DNA of 64,000 nucleotides from a bacterium (GTDB lineage Bacteria > Armatimonadota > Zipacnadia > Zipacnadales > Zipacnadaceae): positions 1 to 64,000 of the forward strand of contig JAUVZM010000007.1 of the NCBI GenBank assembly GCA_030602615.1, read 5' to 3'. Shown one piece after another: positions 809 to 39,309 of this stretch. The notes beneath the pieces are model-generated. The model saw only the letters and a list, made by a program, of their open reading frames with translations. It did no database searches and had not been told where the DNA came from. Within the stretch, counting starts at the first letter, position 1, and every line of letters starts with the position of its first letter. Both the position numbers and the translations under genes were made by a program.

Positions 809-1303
809 TCAAGGCTTCCAGGATGTGCGTTCGGGCTTCGTTTCAGTGCCGGGTTCGGTTGCTGCTCCCCGCCTGCCCACTTCCACGATCTTGCCACCCC
901 GCTGCAGAATGACCAGCGAATTGCGGAAGGAGTGCGGCCGCTCGCCGGGAGGAGTCTTCGGGTCAACGCAGGCGGCAACAGTAGTGTCAACCGGCTCCCC
1001 GGGCTTGGGCACCTCGTAGTAGTACGGCGCGCCTGTCTTCGTGCACAGCAGGAGGGTGTCGTCGGTGATGAACCCGGTTTGATGGAGCGCGGCCAGTCCC
1101 GGCGGGTACCCGCCCTGGTCGTTGTAGTACATGCGCAAAGCGATGCCGATATGGGTGAGGTTCGATCGGCAGGTATTCACGCGCGAGCGGTCCAGCGCCG
1201 CCGGAATAGCCGGCAGGATAGCCGCAGAAAGTATCGCGATAATCGCGATTACCACCAGGAGTTCAATGAGTGTGAAGCCGCCGTCGCTATTCCGTCTGGT
1301 CAT
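809..1303 (-). CDS. Prepilin-type pseudopilin (N-methylation motif)
   Basis: GGFTLIELLVVIAIIAILSAAILPAI class III signal. Confidence 0.88.
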   Translation of the reverse strand: MTRRNSDGGFTLIELLVVIAIIAILSAAILPAIPAALDRSRVNTCRSNLTHIGIALRMYYNDQGGYPPGLAALHQTGFITDDTLLLCTKTGAPYYYEVPKPGEPVDTTVAACVDPKTPPGERPHSFRNSLVILQRGGKIVEVGRRGAATEPGTETKPERTSWKP

Positions 1304-1811
1304 GCTGGGTCACCCAACCTATTCTCTCTGACCACTGGTCGGCCGGATACCTGCCCGCCGCCCCATCGAGCCGCACGCCAATCCAGCGCTTGCCGTGGTG
1401 GCGATCAGGCACGTTGTCCGCCGCAAGGATGGCCGTAGGCAGGTCATCAGCTATCAGAGAATGATTGAATACGTAGTCAACCGGATCGAATCGGTCCTCT
1501 CCACCCCACGGGTAGGCTGCACCTTGCTCCGTCGTTCGTGGCGCCTCCGGGCAGCGGAACAGAGCATAGTCTCTGAAGTAGGGGTAGGGGTACAAGGGAC
1601 GCAAATCGCCGGGATCCGGCGGCATGTGCAGGTCGTGATCGGCCGCGTACATGAGCAGGCCCAGCCCGATTTGCTTCAGGTTGCTTAGGCAACCAGTATC
1701 GCCCGCGCGGTCGCGCACGGCGTGGTTAGCGTAGTTCACCAGGAGCATGGCAACACCTATTATGAGCAGCACTACCGTCAATTCCATCGCCGTAAATCCG
1801 CGCCGGTTCAT
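1287..1811 (-). CDS. Prepilin-type pseudopilin
   Basis: Start trimmed to [25 protein letters not shown]; overlaps neighbours in an operon. Confidence 0.82.
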
Positions 1812-2536
1812 CGCTGGCTCCTCCCGGGGCCCCTTGAGGGTGGGGGCGGTGTGCCAGGTACCATGCCGGGCGGGAAGCTGGGTGGTAGCGGCCCCATCAT
1901 ACCCCCCGGTGGCACGCGTGCATCTTCCGGTGGCGGATTGCGTTCCGCGATGATCTCCTCCAGAGGCCGGAACCCCAGCGCCCGCCACTCTTGCTCGCCC
2001 AGCCAGCGGAGACCGCCGTCGGAAAACAGGACGTTGGCCTTGTCCCCGTGGCTGGGTTCGTGATCCGTCACCAGAGGCGCGACAGGAAGCTCATTGTGCC
2101 GGTGCCCGGCACGGTAGTAGTACGACCACTGGATTGGTTCCTCCTCGGGCTCGGCCTTCTCCTCAGACTCCTTGGGGCGCGGTGTGATTGGCGGATAGCC
2201 CATACTATAGCGGTACGGGTCAATCGGCAGACTCTCGTCGGCGGGAGCCCCCATGGGCACCCCGTCGTAGCTGGTCGGACATTCAAACACGTTCTTGTCC
2301 CCCACGTATTGTGGATACAGCGGCGCGAGGTCATCGTCTCGGGGCGGATAGTAGCCGTCGTTGTCCAGCGCGTACATACCCAGCGCCATGCCCATGTTGA
2401 ACAGGTTGCTCAGGCAGCTTTGTCGGCGGGCTGCCTCCCGGGCCCGGGCAAATACCGGAAAGAGGATGGCCGCCAGCACTGCTATCACACTGATGACCCC
2501 GAGCAGCTCAATTATGGTAAAGCCACGCTTGTTCAT
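1808..2536 (-). CDS. Prepilin-type pseudopilin (DUF1559-like, DG motif)
   Basis: [45 protein letters not shown] and C-terminal [12 protein letters not shown]. Confidence 0.88.
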
Positions 2537-3228
2537 TATCGTGGTCTGGAGGGGCTTGGAATCGGCGGCGGGCCTGGCCCGCCTGGCCCCGGCGGGCGAG
2601 GCCCGCCTGGCAGCACCGGCATTCCCCCAGGAATAGGTCCCACGGGCTGGCCCAACGGTGGCTCGGCCGGCGGCTGGGGGACGCTCTCGCCGCGCAGAGC
2701 CTGGATTTCGTCGATTCCGCGATACTTATCATGCATCTCCTGTGGATACCGGTCCTCAGACAGGCGAATCCATCTGGCGTGACCGTCCACAAACAGGCAG
2801 TTAGCCCCATCATTGTGATGATCACCAACGTCGTCGGCGGCGATTATGATATTGGGCAGGTCGTCGTCACACAACCCGCCGCGGTAGACATAGTCGCAGG
2901 GCAGAGGCAGTACATCGCGCGGCGGCCACGGCGGCGGTCCCGGTGAGCGGGCGCTTTGGGCGGTCGGACAGGTCAGAGCCGCTGCATCGGGCAGGTAGTT
3001 CGGCACCAGGGGCGTTAGGTCATTGTCAGCGGGCAGGAAGTGGCCGTGCCAGTCTGCCGCGTACATCCCCAGAGCTGCGCCGATGTTGAGCAGGTGGTTC
3101 AGGCATTCGGCTTGGCGAGCCTTCGCCTGGGCTTTGGCGAAGACCGGGAAAAGTATTGCCGCCAGGATCATGATGATACCCAGGGCCACGGTGAACTCCG
3201 CATAGGTGAAGCCGTCGCGCCGGTTCAT
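2536..3228 (-). CDS. Prepilin-type pseudopilin (DUF1559-like, DG motif)
   Basis: Start trimmed to [59 protein letters not shown]. Confidence 0.85.
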
Positions 3229-3686
3229 TGGTCTCCCCCTTCGCCCTCCGCATGTAATAGACTGATTAAGTGATCCTGAGCCGCGGGCGGGACCAGCCGC
3301 CAGGTGCCCGCGGTGATGCCGTCGCCAGCCCGCACCCGCCCGGTGATCGCGCGGCGAATAAGCGTACCCGAGGCCAGCTCCATCTGCCCCAGTGCGGTTA
3401 TCTGCGTTCCGGTGCGCTGCACCGCATACCGGGCTCGGCCACACCGGCCGACTACTGCCCTATTCGACCGGGTCTGCAGAGCAACGTCCAGGCCAGCTTC
3501 GGCAGCGTAGAGCGCCTGGGCCGCGGCCCACGCATTCTCGGTGCGCAGGTACCCGGCGGCCAGGCTCTGGGTTAGGCCGAGCAGCGTTCCGAATATGATC
3601 AGCATCATCGCCACTGCCAGCGAGATAGCCAGTATCCCCCGCCGCCGCGCAGCAATCTGCCCAATTGTCGGTCTCGATCGCTTCAT
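3225..3686 (-). CDS. Minor pilin-like protein (PilX/GspK-type N-terminus)
   Basis: RRRGILAISLAVAMMLIIFGTLLGLTQSLAAGYLRTENAWAAAQALYAAEAGLD; 4-nt overlaps with neighbours. Confidence 0.65.
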   Translation of the reverse strand: MKRSRPTIGQIAARRRGILAISLAVAMMLIIFGTLLGLTQSLAAGYLRTENAWAAAQALYAAEAGLDVALQTRSNRAVVGRCGRARYAVQRTGTQITALGQMELASGTLIRRAITGRVRAGDGITAGTWRLVPPAAQDHLISLLHAEGEGGDQ

Positions 3687-4102
3687 CGGTTCCTCAGATA
3701 GTACGCCGTGCGCACCGTGCGCTCGTTAGCGGTCAAGGTCACCAAGACCACGGCCCCGCGCGGCCGGAAGTTAGCCCGGACTCCTGGATACATCCTCAGG
3801 TTATCAGGACCCGCCGCTGCTGTGCGCAGCGTCGCCTCCTGCACGTCGTCCCAGGCGTAGCGAATCTGCGTGGCTCCCCGTATCGTCAGACTCGACCCAC
3901 CTCCGGTGACAGCCCTTGCGCCGCGCACGTCAGTGCCGAGGTCAGCCACAAGCTGTGCCTGTACGCCCATGCCAGCAATGTGCTCGACCTCCACTCCCAC
4001 CGAGCTGTCAATCGTAAACACCATCCGCAACAGTACGGTCATGGCCGCCGCGAGGATCGCGGTAGCGATGATCAGTTCGATCAAGGCGTAGCCGCGCTTC
4101 AT
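3683..4102 (-). CDS. Minor pseudopilin
   Basis: MKRGYALIELIIATAILAAAMTVLLRMVF prepilin signal. Confidence 0.8.
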   Translation of the reverse strand: MKRGYALIELIIATAILAAAMTVLLRMVFTIDSSVGVEVEHIAGMGVQAQLVADLGTDVRGARAVTGGGSSLTIRGATQIRYAWDDVQEATLRTAAAGPDNLRMYPGVRANFRPRGAVVLVTLTANERTVRTAYYLRNR

Positions 4103-4707
4103 CCGCCCACCCCCTGCGCGGACATAATCGTGCTCAGACTGATCTCGCCCGCCGGAGTCTGCTCACCCTCCGGCCAGCGGACTGTCACCGTCACCTGCTT
4201 GCTGCCCGCCACCGGGCCCGACTCGACGTGCGTGACGCCACTTAGCTGCGTATCGGATTCCACAGGGAAGGGATAGTCGCCCGGCCCTCGCAGCGCTGCG
4301 TACCCCCGCGCGCGGGCCATCTCAACGCGCTCCTGGCAGACTGCCAGGCCGGCCATATGCCGTTCCTGCACTGCACGCGCCCGGTTACCCTGAACGTAAG
4401 CCTGCAGGAACATCGTCAGGCAGAGGGTAATGATGAACAGTGACACGAGCATTGAGACCAGCGTGGCGCCGCTTTGCTGGCGCTGCGGCAGCTCGTGAGC
4501 TGCGTCCCAGGATGCAGCCCTGTCTATGTAGCGCGGCCAGAAATACGCGACGGCAATTACCTGCCATGCGCAGATTGTGGCCACCCCACCGGCCAGCCCG
4601 TAGTCGCGTGTGAAAAACCCCACGACTCCACCAATGACTGAAGCCCCCAGATAGACGATCCCCAGCCAGAAGACAACCCGCCCGGCTTTGAACAGCCATT
4701 CGGTCAT
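4099..4707 (-). CDS. Pseudopilin-like protein with extra N-terminal two-TM module
   Basis: N-terminal two TM segments, then QQSGATLVSMLVSLFIITLCLTMFLQAYVQGNRARA pilin-like helix. Confidence 0.6.
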   Translation of the reverse strand: MTEWLFKAGRVVFWLGIVYLGASVIGGVVGFFTRDYGLAGGVATICAWQVIAVAYFWPRYIDRAASWDAAHELPQRQQSGATLVSMLVSLFIITLCLTMFLQAYVQGNRARAVQERHMAGLAVCQERVEMARARGYAALRGPGDYPFPVESDTQLSGVTHVESGPVAGSKQVTVTVRWPEGEQTPAGEISLSTIMSAQGVGG

Positions 4708-6269
4708 GACAGCTCGCGCCTCCCCAGCACCGACGCCAGTTCCTCGAGAGTGGTGATGCCCGCGGCTGCCTTAGCCAGGCCGGATTGCCACAGGCCGCCG
4801 ACAGCATCTTCGCGGGCAATTGCCTCCAACTCGGGCAGCGGCCGGCACGCGACAATGGCCTCCCGCAGCCGGCGGGTCACGGGCAGTAAGGCAAAGACCC
4901 CGGTGCGGCCCTGGTATCCCGTATTCCCACAGGCCTCACAACCTCGGCCCCGGCGGAAAGTGCCACCGGCCATCTCTTCCCGGCTGAGCCCCACCGCCTT
5001 CAGCTCTGCGTCTGGGGGAGAGTACGGCGCGCCGCAGCCCTCACACACCGTCCGCACCAGCCGCTGCGCGATTACAGCGGTGACACTGGAAGCGATAAGA
5101 TACGGCTCGACGCCGAGCTGCGCCAGGCGCGTGAAGACCCCCGCCGCCGAGGGCGCGTGCACCGTGCTGAAGACCAGGTGCCCGGTAAGACCGGCCTGGA
5201 CTGCGATGCCGGCGGTCTCCGAGTCGCGGATCTCGCCCACCATAATAACCTGGGGGTCCTGGCGCAGTACCGTGCGCAGACCCTGGGCGAAATCGAGTCC
5301 GACGTCGCGGTTGACCTCCGTCTGGGCGATGCCCGCCAGGTCGAGTTCCACCGGCTCCTCGACCGTCGCGAACACGCGATCGGCGAATCCCTCACGCAGG
5401 GAGGCGAGGGTGGCGTACATCGTCGTGGTCTTCCCCGAGCCCGACGGGCCGGTCAGAAAGATGCAGCCCTGGGGCCGAGTGATCAACTCCTGATATGCCT
5501 CCAATACCGCCGTGTCCATACCCAGCGCAGCCGGGTCCAGTAAGGCGCGGTCGGGATCAAACAGCCGCAGCGTGATCTTCTCACCCTGTGTGGTCGGTAG
5601 ACAGGTCAGCCGCACGTCAACAGCCCGGTCTGCGACCGTAATGCTGGTCCGTCCGGTCTGGGCAACATGCCGCTGGAAGACCTTCATGCCCCCGATGACC
5701 TTCAGACACGATACCAGCCGCGCCCCCAGCTCGGCGGGCATCTCGACCACCTCGAGGAGCTGGCCGTCCACGCGATAGCGCACCGCCGTCTGCAGCAGAC
5801 CTGGTTCAAAGTGGATGTCGGTCGCCCCATTGTGGACGGCCTGAACCATAAGCAACTCGGCCAGGGCACTGGGCTGGTCGCTGGATCGCTTGACCACCTC
5901 AGCTACCGCTGTGCGCAGGGCCTCCCCCGCCAGCCGCCCCTGGAACGAGGGCTGTCGGCGCAGAGCGGCACGGGCGGCGGCCTGGCTGATGACTTGCACT
6001 GCCCATAGTGCCTCAGGACGACGCACACCGGCGATGACCCACGTCGGGCGCGTTGTCGAGAAGAACACCATCAGGCGGCGCTGGCGGGCTGCGAACTCGG
6101 CGTGGCTCACCTCCTCCCAGCTGGCGGCCTGATAGTCGGGATCCTTCGATACCCGCCCACGGTAGGTGAGAGCCACTCCTTCAGGTGACAGATGTAGGCT
6201 CCACTGCCGTCCTGTGATTCTTTCGGTCGTGACTGTTGATGCACCCATGCTCAGTCCTCCCTGAGGCAA
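4704..6269 (-). CDS. Type II secretion/type IV pilus assembly ATPase (GspE/PilB family)
   Basis: GPSGSGKTTTMYATL Walker A, GEIRDSETAGIAVQAGLTGHLVFSTVHAPSA, zinc-binding Cys pairs CEGC/CEAC. Confidence 0.95.
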   Translation of the reverse strand: MPQGGLSMGASTVTTERITGRQWSLHLSPEGVALTYRGRVSKDPDYQAASWEEVSHAEFAARQRRLMVFFSTTRPTWVIAGVRRPEALWAVQVISQAAARAALRRQPSFQGRLAGEALRTAVAEVVKRSSDQPSALAELLMVQAVHNGATDIHFEPGLLQTAVRYRVDGQLLEVVEMPAELGARLVSCLKVIGGMKVFQRHVAQTGRTSITVADRAVDVRLTCLPTTQGEKITLRLFDPDRALLDPAALGMDTAVLEAYQELITRPQGCIFLTGPSGSGKTTTMYATLASLREGFADRVFATVEEPVELDLAGIAQTEVNRDVGLDFAQGLRTVLRQDPQVIMVGEIRDSETAGIAVQAGLTGHLVFSTVHAPSAAGVFTRLAQLGVEPYLIASSVTAVIAQRLVRTVCEGCGAPYSPPDAELKAVGLSREEMAGGTFRRGRGCEACGNTGYQGRTGVFALLPVTRRLREAIVACRPLPELEAIAREDAVGGLWQSGLAKAAAGITTLEELASVLGRRELS

Positions 6270-7475
6270 TTACTGGCTCAGTTGGTCGATGATACTGATT
6301 AGCGGGGCAAACATGGATACGGCGAGTACCCCGACGATTAGTCCGAGGATGACCACAACCACCGGGCCGGCGATAATGACCCACTTGCGGCCCAGATAAT
6401 TGACGCGGCGCGTGTAGTCCTCCTGGATGTGCTCGAGGATGGCGGTGAAGTCACCACTGGCCTCCGCGCCAGCCAGGGTCGTGACGAAGGCCTCGGGCAG
6501 CAGGCCGGTCTCGCGCAGCCCCTGGGCGAGGCGTCCTCCCTCGTTGACCGCGGCTTCCGCTCGGCGCATTGCCAGGCTAATGTGGCGATTACCGGAGGCC
6601 TCACCGGCCAGGCGCAGGGACCGGCCCGCCGGAACACCGTTCGCCAGCAGCAGACGCAGCGAAGCAGCACAGCGAGCCAGGGCACCGTACATCGCCAGAC
6701 GGCCAAACAGCGGCACCGGCAAGCCGAAGGGGCGGATCTCCAGCCGACTCGACCGCGCGATGGACTTGACACTGTAGAAGATCACAAGGACGGCCAGCAC
6801 GACAAGCACTGGAATAATCACGATCCTGCCGAAGGCCAGCAGGTGGCTGGTCGCACCGGTGATCCAGGGGAAGGCCTCCTCTCGCAGACCCAGATCCTTA
6901 TAGAGCGTCCGAAACTGCGGCCAGATGTATGTGCTTACGAGCATGGTGATGGATGTAACCAGGATAATCAGGAACACTGGGTAGACCAGCGGCAGGGCCA
7001 GGCCGTGCCCCAATTGTTGCAGCTCGCGCTGGTGCTCGCTGAGCGATCTGATACTCTCGGCCAGCTGACCGGAGGCTTCGCCGGCAGCGACGGTATTGAT
7101 GACCAGTGGAGCGAAGGTGCTGGGCTGCTCAGCCATCGCCTCGCTGAGCAGGTAGCCCGCAGTGACATGATCAGCCAGCGCGGTGAGACTGCGCGCCAGG
7201 CGCCGATTGCTGACCTCCCCTGCCATTGTACGCAGTGCCGTGGTTAGCTCCAGCCCCTGCTCCAGCAGCGCCGCGATCTGCTCGTAAACGGAGATCAGGA
7301 GCTGCTGGTCAATGCCTGGCGCTTCAGCCAGAGCCGGGGGGGCCGGCCCGCCGGACTGAATTGCAACACCCTCGTGTTTGAAGTCAAGCAGAGCCTGGGG
7401 CAGCGAATCCGCAGCTACCACCTCACGGCGCCCCTCCGAACGATCAGTGGTAAACCAGAATCTGGGCATCAGCAA
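6270..7475 (-). CDS. Type II secretion inner-membrane platform protein (GspF/PilC family)
   Basis: GspF-like repeats, TM helices, follows GspE in operon. Confidence 0.92.
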   Translation of the reverse strand: MLMPRFWFTTDRSEGRREVVAADSLPQALLDFKHEGVAIQSGGPAPPALAEAPGIDQQLLISVYEQIAALLEQGLELTTALRTMAGEVSNRRLARSLTALADHVTAGYLLSEAMAEQPSTFAPLVINTVAAGEASGQLAESIRSLSEHQRELQQLGHGLALPLVYPVFLIILVTSITMLVSTYIWPQFRTLYKDLGLREEAFPWITGATSHLLAFGRIVIIPVLVVLAVLVIFYSVKSIARSSRLEIRPFGLPVPLFGRLAMYGALARCAASLRLLLANGVPAGRSLRLAGEASGNRHISLAMRRAEAAVNEGGRLAQGLRETGLLPEAFVTTLAGAEASGDFTAILEHIQEDYTRRVNYLGRKWVIIAGPVVVVILGLIVGVLAVSMFAPLISIIDQLSQ

Positions 7476-36983: not shown

Positions 36984-38471
36984 CTAGCTGGCGTCTTCGG
37001 TCTGAGCAGGAGGCTCACCCTCGCGGGCGGTATCTACTATTGAGCGGCGGCGCCGCCAGATGACTACCGCAACGATGAGCGGTACAAAGAACAGTCCGTA
37101 GAGCAAAACGCGGACGAGAATCATGCCGAGCACCGATGCGACGCGGACAAAGCCGGCCCATGCCGCGCGCAAGCCCCGAGCTGTGAGAATAGGCTGAGGC
37201 ATCTTTTCCCGCAGAGTCGCACTTATCGTGGACAGCGCCACTTCTCGCTGTACGCTGAACACCTCGTCCTGGGCCTGGCCGAGTTCAGTCTGGGTTTGCT
37301 GCAACTCGGTATCTATCTGCGGCCTTTTCGCCTTTGGTGCCGCTGCCCGGCGTACCTGGAGCTGCTGAGTCTTCTGCTGGCTCTGCGTAATAGCGCGGGC
37401 GGCTCTGGTGTACTCGTCGGTCATATCCTCCCCGACGATCTCCCGCTTGGCTACGTAGCCCAAGGCACCGAGAGCGTTGATAACATTGGCCAACTCGGGT
37501 GTGGGCACCTTGCCGACGATCTGTGCAGTACTGGGCTGACCCGGTGTATCGTGCCGCGTCAAGCTCGATTGAAGTATGAAGCCACCGCATTCGTAAAAGG
37601 TCCGTTCTGCGCTGACCACTGACTGCTGAATGTCAGTCACCCAGACCTCAATGGCGGCGTCATACGCCAGTTGCAGCATCCGGCGCAGGCCGTAGTTGCG
37701 GTCCGGTAATCCTGGAGTTACCGCCGTGGTACTCATCCCCAGCTCTTCCCACCGTTTCTTGCTTAGCATCTGGGCGTGGCCGTCCGCGAAGCCCGCATTG
37801 AGGCCGTCACCGTCATTGTGCCGGAATGCCGGCGTACCGTCCGGTTGTGCGTCATAGATGATTATGGCCTTAGACTCGTCGGGAATATCCTCCAGCTTCC
37901 ATTCGCTCCAGCGCTTAACCATGGCGTAGCTGCTCGGCTCCATGGGCGCCAGAGGGCATTGTAGAATCTCCTCGTTATTCAAGTATGCTGCCATGTCCTC
38001 GGTCCAGGTCCAAGCATTGGGCAGATGCCCGTCGTAGTCGTCGGCATACATCTGCATAGCTAGGACGACTTGCTTGACATTGCTCAGACAGCTAGAGACC
38101 CGTGCTTTCGCCCTGCCGCGGGAGAAAACGGGGAACAGGACGGCGGCTAGCACGGCACAAATGCCCACTACGGCAAACAGTTCCGCCAGCCGCAGTGTGA
38201 AGGCTGGCTTAGGTTTTGCTCCGGCTACTCGTTTCTGTGCAGACATCTTGGTCACCCTTTTCATCACGGCGTCTAGGATGTCTGCCGGGCGGCCCGTTAG
38301 CGTCTCGGTGAAAACTTCCCGGTCGGATTCAAGTTGCTCCAGCCACTGGCGACAGTCGGCACATTCGCTCAAGTGAGCCTCGACGGCTGTGCGCTCGTCT
38401 TGGTCACACTCCTCGTCCGCGTAGGCGGATACTGCTTCTCGCCACTGCTCGTGGCTATCCACTTGCGCCAC
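36984..38471 (-). CDS. Zinc-finger anti-sigma / pseudopilin-like / DUF4349-like fusion protein
   Basis: HLSECADCRQWLEQL zf-HC2; ELFAVVGICAVLAAVLFPVFSRGRAKARVSSCLSNVKQ and LNAGFADGHAQML pseudopilin features; IEVWVTDIQQSVVSAERTFYECGGFILQSS...VPTPELANVINALGALGYV DUF4349-like with coiled coil and C-terminal TM. Confidence 0.8.
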   Translation of the reverse strand: MAQVDSHEQWREAVSAYADEECDQDERTAVEAHLSECADCRQWLEQLESDREVFTETLTGRPADILDAVMKRVTKMSAQKRVAGAKPKPAFTLRLAELFAVVGICAVLAAVLFPVFSRGRAKARVSSCLSNVKQVVLAMQMYADDYDGHLPNAWTWTEDMAAYLNNEEILQCPLAPMEPSSYAMVKRWSEWKLEDIPDESKAIIIYDAQPDGTPAFRHNDGDGLNAGFADGHAQMLSKKRWEELGMSTTAVTPGLPDRNYGLRRMLQLAYDAAIEVWVTDIQQSVVSAERTFYECGGFILQSSLTRHDTPGQPSTAQIVGKVPTPELANVINALGALGYVAKREIVGEDMTDEYTRAARAITQSQQKTQQLQVRRAAAPKAKRPQIDTELQQTQTELGQAQDEVFSVQREVALSTISATLREKMPQPILTARGLRAAWAGFVRVASVLGMILVRVLLYGLFFVPLIVAVVIWRRRRSIVDTAREGEPPAQTEDAS

Positions 38472-38994
38472 CTCCCGCCCCCGCCATCGCTGTCCGCAGG
38501 GCCTGCTTGGCCCGGAAACAACGCACTCGGGCGTTATTGACGGTTATCCCCAGCATCTGGGCAATCTCCTGGTAGTCCATCTCCTGCAGGTACCTGGCGG
38601 CCAGTACCTCGCGATGTGCCAGCGGCAGAGTCTGCAGGACCAGAATTGTGTCGGTACTGTCCTCGGTCGGCGGCGTGCTCGGCTCCGGTATTCTGTCCCG
38701 CTCCAGGGATAGCTCCTGGGGCCTTTTCCGGGCGAGGTGCTTGCGGGCCATATTGCGGACGATGCCGTGCAGCCATGCGGCGAACTTGCCCGGCTCGTTC
38801 AGCTTGGCCAGCGACTGGTAAGCCTGGATGAAGGCTTCCTGGGCGATGTCCTGGGCGGCCTCGAAATCGCCGCACAGATGATGAGCCGCTGCTATCACCC
38901 GCGTCTGGTGGGTGCGCACGAGTTCGGCGTAGGCTCTGTTATCGCCCTGGAGCGTTCGTCGGACCATTTGCTCATCCCGGTACGAAATTGCCAT
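38455..38994 (-). CDS. RNA polymerase ECF sigma factor
   Basis: DFEAAQDIAQEAFIQAYQSLAKLNEPGKFAAWLHGIVRNMARKHLARKR; YQEIAQMLGITVNNARVRCFRAKQALR. Confidence 0.93.
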   Translation of the reverse strand: MAISYRDEQMVRRTLQGDNRAYAELVRTHQTRVIAAAHHLCGDFEAAQDIAQEAFIQAYQSLAKLNEPGKFAAWLHGIVRNMARKHLARKRPQELSLERDRIPEPSTPPTEDSTDTILVLQTLPLAHREVLAARYLQEMDYQEIAQMLGITVNNARVRCFRAKQALRTAMAGAGGGASG

Positions 38995-39309
38995 CAGGAC
39001 CTCTGGATCATCTGGCCGCTTCCGCCGAGTCCACCGCTAAGCTGGGCCGCCAGGGCAGACTCTACTGTCTAGATAGTGCCCCACGGAAGCGGTTTCATTA
39101 CACAGAGCCGGGAAAAGAACGCCCAGGGCACCTATCTCAGTTCTATTTCGCCAGCCCTGACCGTGTTCCTTGTGGTGATGCGATTCGGCCGGAGTGGCGC
39201 AGCGGATAACGAGCCGGGGAGTATGCACAACAGGAGGCACAAACCGTACAAGCACAGGCCGGTGGTGCTACGCGGATTGGCTTGGGCCAGCAGCACCTCG
39301 TCCTCGTTC

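Follow-up and report, generated by a model that had tools for sequence, protein, structure and literature searches.

What does a protein do that joins a zinc-finger anti-sigma domain, a pilin-like module, and a DUF4349 domain in one open reading frame (ORF) next to an ECF sigma factor gene? Such a frame lies in the window, the 64,000-nt stretch of DNA analyzed here, which comes from a genome of Candidatus Zipacnadia, an Armatimonadota class described in marine sediment (PMC10290634); the nearest relative with a name is JALGTU010000155.1, a MAG of that class. Among class I anti-sigma factors, the domains fused at the C terminus vary and are believed to determine what is sensed (PMC7406223). A literature search found no paper linking DUF4349 or DUF1559 to anti-sigma factors, which is weak evidence of absence, as most of the subscription literature lay outside the search. 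The signal is obscure for most anti-sigma factors, and a conserved pilin-type ectodomain offers a specific, testable idea of what it might be.

The features of the locus are collected in Table 1. The frame encoding the 495-aa protein begins with GTG and shares 17 nt with the ECF sigma ORF, and Pfam analysis bore out the original prediction that one ORF overlapping the sigma gene carries all three domains in this order. Matches to zf-HC2, to DUF1559/SBP_bac_10 (residues 119 to 155; 3.9e-6), and to DUF4349 all exceeded the curated Pfam cutoffs, with DUF4349 scoring 80.7 bits against a cutoff of 27.7 for PF14257. The motif RRRR follows the second transmembrane (TM) segment (TM2). Upstream of the sigma gene, on the same strand, lies a PlsY-like acyltransferase gene, and the next gene downstream of the anti-sigma gene encodes a phosphoesterase and is convergent. 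Because of that convergent neighbor, and with a PlsY-like acyltransferase gene on the other side, the sigma and anti-sigma genes look like a two-gene unit.

Table 1. Positions in the window of the sigma/anti-sigma locus and its parts
Feature	Position	Strand	Basis
ECF sigma factor, 179 aa, sigma-70 regions 2 and 4	38455..38994	(-)	Sigma70_r2 4.4e-17, Sigma70_r4_2 7.4e-13, TIGR02937 1.2e-25
Fused anti-sigma factor (best reading), 495 aa, zf-HC2 + pilin-like + DUF4349	36984..38471	(-)	Pfam, AF2 model, orthologs
zf-HC2 anti-sigma domain, residues 8-41, ligand motif Hx3Cx2C	38349..38450	(-)	PF13490 1.4e-10
Pilin-like module, residues 88-245: hydrophobic helix (TM1) and small beta head, H...DGH end	37737..38210	(-)	AF2 and family profile
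DUF4349, residues 267-470: beta-alpha-beta domain, coiled coil, second TM	37062..37673	(-)	PF14257 1.3e-22, matching stretch in genome search, model
Promoter-like element GTGTAATG-N17-CACT, 80 nt upstream of sigma start	39075..39103	(-)	Same element and spacing at orthologous sigma genes, two classes

The N-terminal domain resembles that of known anti-sigma factors. Residues H33, C37, and C40 were almost invariant among relatives, and the first 80 positions of a full-length family profile, built from fusions only, matched RsiW (PDB 5wuq) at 6.2e-7. Moreover, an ECF sigma match adjoined the fusion at all 19 loci tested, which came from two classes, one of these matches being partial and at a contig end. 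The locus shares with RsiW/SigW of Bacillus subtilis a sequence-related zinc anti-sigma domain, a TM anchor behind that domain, and a co-encoded ECF sigma factor. Unlike the 495-aa protein, RsiW is not known to carry a pilin fold, a DUF4349 domain, or a second TM segment. On its N-terminal domain and its co-encoded ECF sigma factor, the 495-aa protein is best read as a class I (zf-HC2) anti-sigma factor that presumably binds the neighboring sigma factor.

The architecture is conserved. Full-length relatives with 28 to 53% identity were found in many genomes, and the fusion stood beside an ECF sigma gene in 15 of the 46 genomes of the class, 14 of them identified by strong matches to a profile of the zinc-finger and pilin parts and one (G032) by reading two frames. 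A search of 292 genomes of the phylum added at least three genomes, from a second class, in which a single ORF encodes zf-HC2, pilin, and DUF4349; the best 12 candidates per genome were scored, such that this count is a lower bound. In two of the three second-class fusions an ECF sigma gene precedes, and in the third, which lies at a contig end, the sigma match is partial. Recurrence of the three-domain order in other genomes, a check suggested with the original prediction, was thus found beside ECF sigma genes in at least 18 genomes of two classes. Draft-genome copies in G032, G035, G037, and G001 were interrupted by contig ends or frame breaks. A single low-sensitivity scan outside the phylum returned ordinary pilins only, in Lentisphaerae and Phycisphaerae, and viral contigs matched the pilin segment only, with the zinc-finger part absent.

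Some relatives depart from the three-domain plan. Two (G043 and G044b) have the zinc finger and pilin without DUF4349, and one (G044a) keeps the pilin and DUF4349 with its zinc ligands lost, a point against the explanation proposed below. In two members of the window's own family (G001 and G013), zinc finger, TM segment, and DUF4349 are kept and a linker-like stretch stands in place of the pilin head. Because these two lost the head and retained the rest, we conclude that the head is not essential in every version.

Structure prediction, a check named in advance, supported a pilin-like fold. The AF2 model of residues 88 to 245 was pseudopilin-like, in that a helix spanning approximately 56 residues carries a small beta head (pLDDT 95.1, pTM 0.83). 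A profile of the pilin module that combined fused and free pilins matched geopilin (2.4e-11), PilA, and GspG in the PDB, and the full-length, fusions-only profile also matched geopilin (2.7e-10). When queried with the pilin model, Foldseek found nothing below an E value of 0.001, the best hit being the full-length pilin 1ay2 at an E value of 0.05. The full-length AF2 model was weaker (pLDDT 70.9, pTM 0.35). In it, the zinc domain is helical, the pilin helix follows, DUF4349 has a beta-alpha-beta arrangement and a coiled coil, and the final long helix runs through TM2. Foldseek of that full-length model against the PDB yielded nothing significant, and a hit to PilO at an E value of 0.5 is no evidence.

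The module is related to the pseudopilins encoded by the same genome. Its sequence matched them with E values down to 1.4e-13 at 1.0 to 3.2 kb of the window and 3.6e-21 elsewhere, and the alignment of fused and free pilins was almost gapless through the helix. The relatedness to the window pseudopilins claimed originally therefore stands, but its description as almost residue-for-residue was overstated, as identity was 28 to 42% and strongest over FPVF..R.KA...CLSN. That helix motif, the predicted fold, and the H...DGH end are shared with DUF1559 (H-X9-DG) and GspG-type pseudopilins; unlike those, the fused module has no free N terminus, as a cytoplasmic domain precedes it. Over eight intact members, mean pairwise identity was 52% in the pilin helix, which is the best-conserved segment of the fusion, 44% in the zinc finger, 42% in the pilin head, 35% in DUF4349, and 27% in TM2. 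Because helix and head both exceed DUF4349 in identity, we conclude that the pilin part is at least as constrained as DUF4349.

The prepilin cleavage site is mostly gone. Counting ungapped from the conserved FPVF to define positions -1 and +5, the window protein has Thr at -1 and keeps Glu5, the visible "FTL" being offset by two residues; the proposal that the prepilin glycine is replaced was right in substance. Gly(-1) was missing in 16 of 19 fused proteins, its place taken by Arg, Thr, Ser, Ala, or Val, which supports the further suggestion of a pilin helix that acts as a noncleaved TM anchor. The idea that every member lacks Gly(-1) was rejected, as the same count gives Gly in three (L045, L049, and L094), with Ser or Gln at +1, and these members count against an uncleaved anchor. 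A canonical GFTLIE-type site was found in 32 of 39 sampled pilin-type frames, a sample picked by similarity and biased toward canonical sites. The TM glutamate was kept in 17 of 19 fused proteins, the exceptions being the headless G013 and G044a, which lacks the zinc ligands. Arg occupied +2 in 13 of 19, and of the six members lacking it, five retained Glu. Because a cytoplasmic domain precedes the module and Gly(-1) is mostly gone, the fused pilin should not be cleaved, methylated, or assembled as pilins normally are, and its entry into a filament behind an N-terminal cytoplasmic domain is unlikely.

Pilin-type proteins also occur beside and apart from the fusion. In G016 and G032, a pilin-like protein that lacks a cleavage site is encoded beside the sigma gene and is nearest to the fused pilin domains. 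In G041, a pilin with a canonical site directly follows the anti-sigma gene and is sister to that anti-sigma factor's own pilin domain (support 98/95). The tree of pilin domains was weak as to a single origin of the fused ones. Uncleaved pilin modules were also seen on other N termini, namely, GYF_2 (L058:4971-5690), a zinc ribbon (L059:4737-5480), and a zinc ribbon with DUF4190 (L025:1147-2079), and these modules lacked both Gly and Glu. The uncleaved pilin module thus seems to be reused in the phylum as a TM-plus-ectodomain unit on several cytoplasmic domains.

A promoter-like element, absent from the original prediction, precedes the sigma gene. The sequence GTGTAATG-N17-(C/G)ACT was present at 12 of 12 positions at 10 of 18 testable loci, with both classes represented, and at 10 or 11 of 12 positions at five further loci; it failed at three. 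Shuffled upstream DNA attained such scores in 0 to 1 of 500 cases, a test that is partly circular because the consensus was derived from those same upstream regions. As a cleaner test, a class-wide scan gave 17 perfect matches versus 6 for the reversed control. Nine of the 17 lay at fusion operons, and another marks what seems to be a decayed copy in G004. In G032, one of the three failures, a perfect site stands ahead of the pilin-like gene that heads the operon, and in G044 further sites lie ahead of a pilin gene and of a gene for a small exported protein. A one-mismatch scan of the window's genome for a regulon gave 9 matches versus 10 for the control, with nothing beyond the operon's own promoter above background, and scanning the region for generic sigma-70 and terminator signals gave nothing above shuffles. 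We conclude that autoregulation of the sigma/anti-sigma operon from this predicted promoter is well supported by the pattern, and the element offers a direct reporter; a wider regulon has no such support.

We propose, with a probability of roughly three in four, that the locus encodes an autoregulated ECF sigma factor and a membrane-bound class I anti-sigma factor in which an uncleaved pseudopilin provides TM1 and the ectodomain and in which DUF4349 and TM2 close a hairpin. The cytoplasmic zinc domain would hold the sigma factor, the chain would span the membrane by way of a pseudopilin-type helix lacking the prepilin cleavage site, the pilin head and DUF4349 would be displayed outside, and TM2 would return the chain inward. 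The sigma factor would be freed when the pilin/DUF4349 ectodomain changes conformation, or when it is cleaved and intramembrane proteolysis follows, and would then transcribe its own operon from the promoter-like element. The presence of an S2P-type protease (a 568-aa frame) in the window's genome is consistent with this proposal.

Two rival explanations are improbable. An assembly artifact, whether chance fusion, frame error, or chimeric contig, has nothing but the draft status of the assembly in its favor; it was rejected and is given a negligible probability, as full-length orthologs exist, the same order recurs beside ECF sigma genes across two classes, and the window frame has no internal stop. 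Alternatively, the pilin leader itself could be the switch, with a prepilin peptidase cutting the fusion to free the zinc domain and the sigma factor. Prepilin peptidases are encoded in the window's genome and three members have Gly(-1), but the loss of that residue from the other 16, compared with the canonical site of most sampled pilin-type frames, makes such a switch very improbable.

Two other explanations are alternative fillings of the sensing step of the proposed anti-sigma factor, and confidence in them overlaps with confidence in the proposal. The pilin module could be a general-purpose extracytoplasmic scaffold that comes from a very large paralogous family and supplies a readily copied TM anchor and spacer, with DUF4349 as the real sensor. 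The fusion of uncleaved modules to zinc-ribbon, DUF4190, and GYF_2 N termini, the exchange of the head for a linker-like stretch in G001 and G013 with DUF4349 retained, and the pilin-free TM-DUF4349 partner of another ECF sigma factor in the same genome (L056) make a scaffold possible, if short of probable. However, the pilin helix and head are conserved no less than DUF4349, Glu5 is retained here and lost in the other uncleaved fusions, and G043 and G044b retain the pilin without DUF4349. The noncleavable helix with its Glu5 might instead pair with mature pseudopilins or with the assembly platform, such that pilin depletion or stalled assembly would free the sigma factor. The near constancy of Glu5, the cleavable sister pilin in G041, the operon pilins of G016 and G032, and the extra promoter-like site upstream of the G044 pilin gene are consistent with such pairing, as are the prepilin peptidases and the T2SSF proteins of the window's genome (one encoded at 6303-7283 of the window). 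There is also precedent in Pseudomonas aeruginosa, where PilSR is fed by inner-membrane PilA levels (PMC6058289); the likeness, a membrane regulator that reads the pilin pool, is hypothetical only, and PilS, unlike the fused anti-sigma factor, is a histidine kinase without a pilin fusion. Glu5 could merely pair with Arg at +2, yet most members without that Arg keep Glu; G001 and G013 have no pilin head left, and the one-mismatch scan revealed no pilin target in the window's genome. Sensing of the pseudopilin pool is rated doubtful, and the condition of the cell's own membrane pseudopilins, the likeliest single signal for the proposed anti-sigma factor, is held to be an unlikely one in absolute terms. 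The original suggestion that the pilin-like domain senses surface or pilus state draws on several of the same points on either side and stays conjectural. If pool sensing were true, pseudopilin machinery would be coupled to transcription without a two-component system, a new route from cell-surface machinery to genes in poorly known sediment bacteria.

The DUF4349 part has relatives of its own. It shares an extracytoplasmic domain, a coiled coil, and a C-terminal TM segment with an Arg-rich tail with the exported, tail-anchored DUF4349 proteins described previously (PMC10924467), and unlike in those proteins, it is linked through a pilin module to an anti-sigma domain. Elsewhere, the second ECF-sigma-like gene of the same genome (L056:3741-4349) adjoins its TM-DUF4349 partner (4039-5808), which lacks zf-HC2 as well as pilin, and another DUF4349 protein (L055:5371-6309) has a first TM segment that is pilin-helix-like (MPVFSLSRQKA).

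A run of pseudopilin genes occupies 809-3276 of the window, near the T2SSF-type gene, and likely belongs to a cluster for type II secretion or a type IV pilus. In G044, the free pilin gene downstream of a perfect sigma-type site (L124:2048-2872) encodes AFTLVEL at the cleavage position. In G004, a near-identical promoter is followed by the apparent first codons of a sigma gene and then by unrelated sequence (L121:2241-2572), as expected of a deleted copy.
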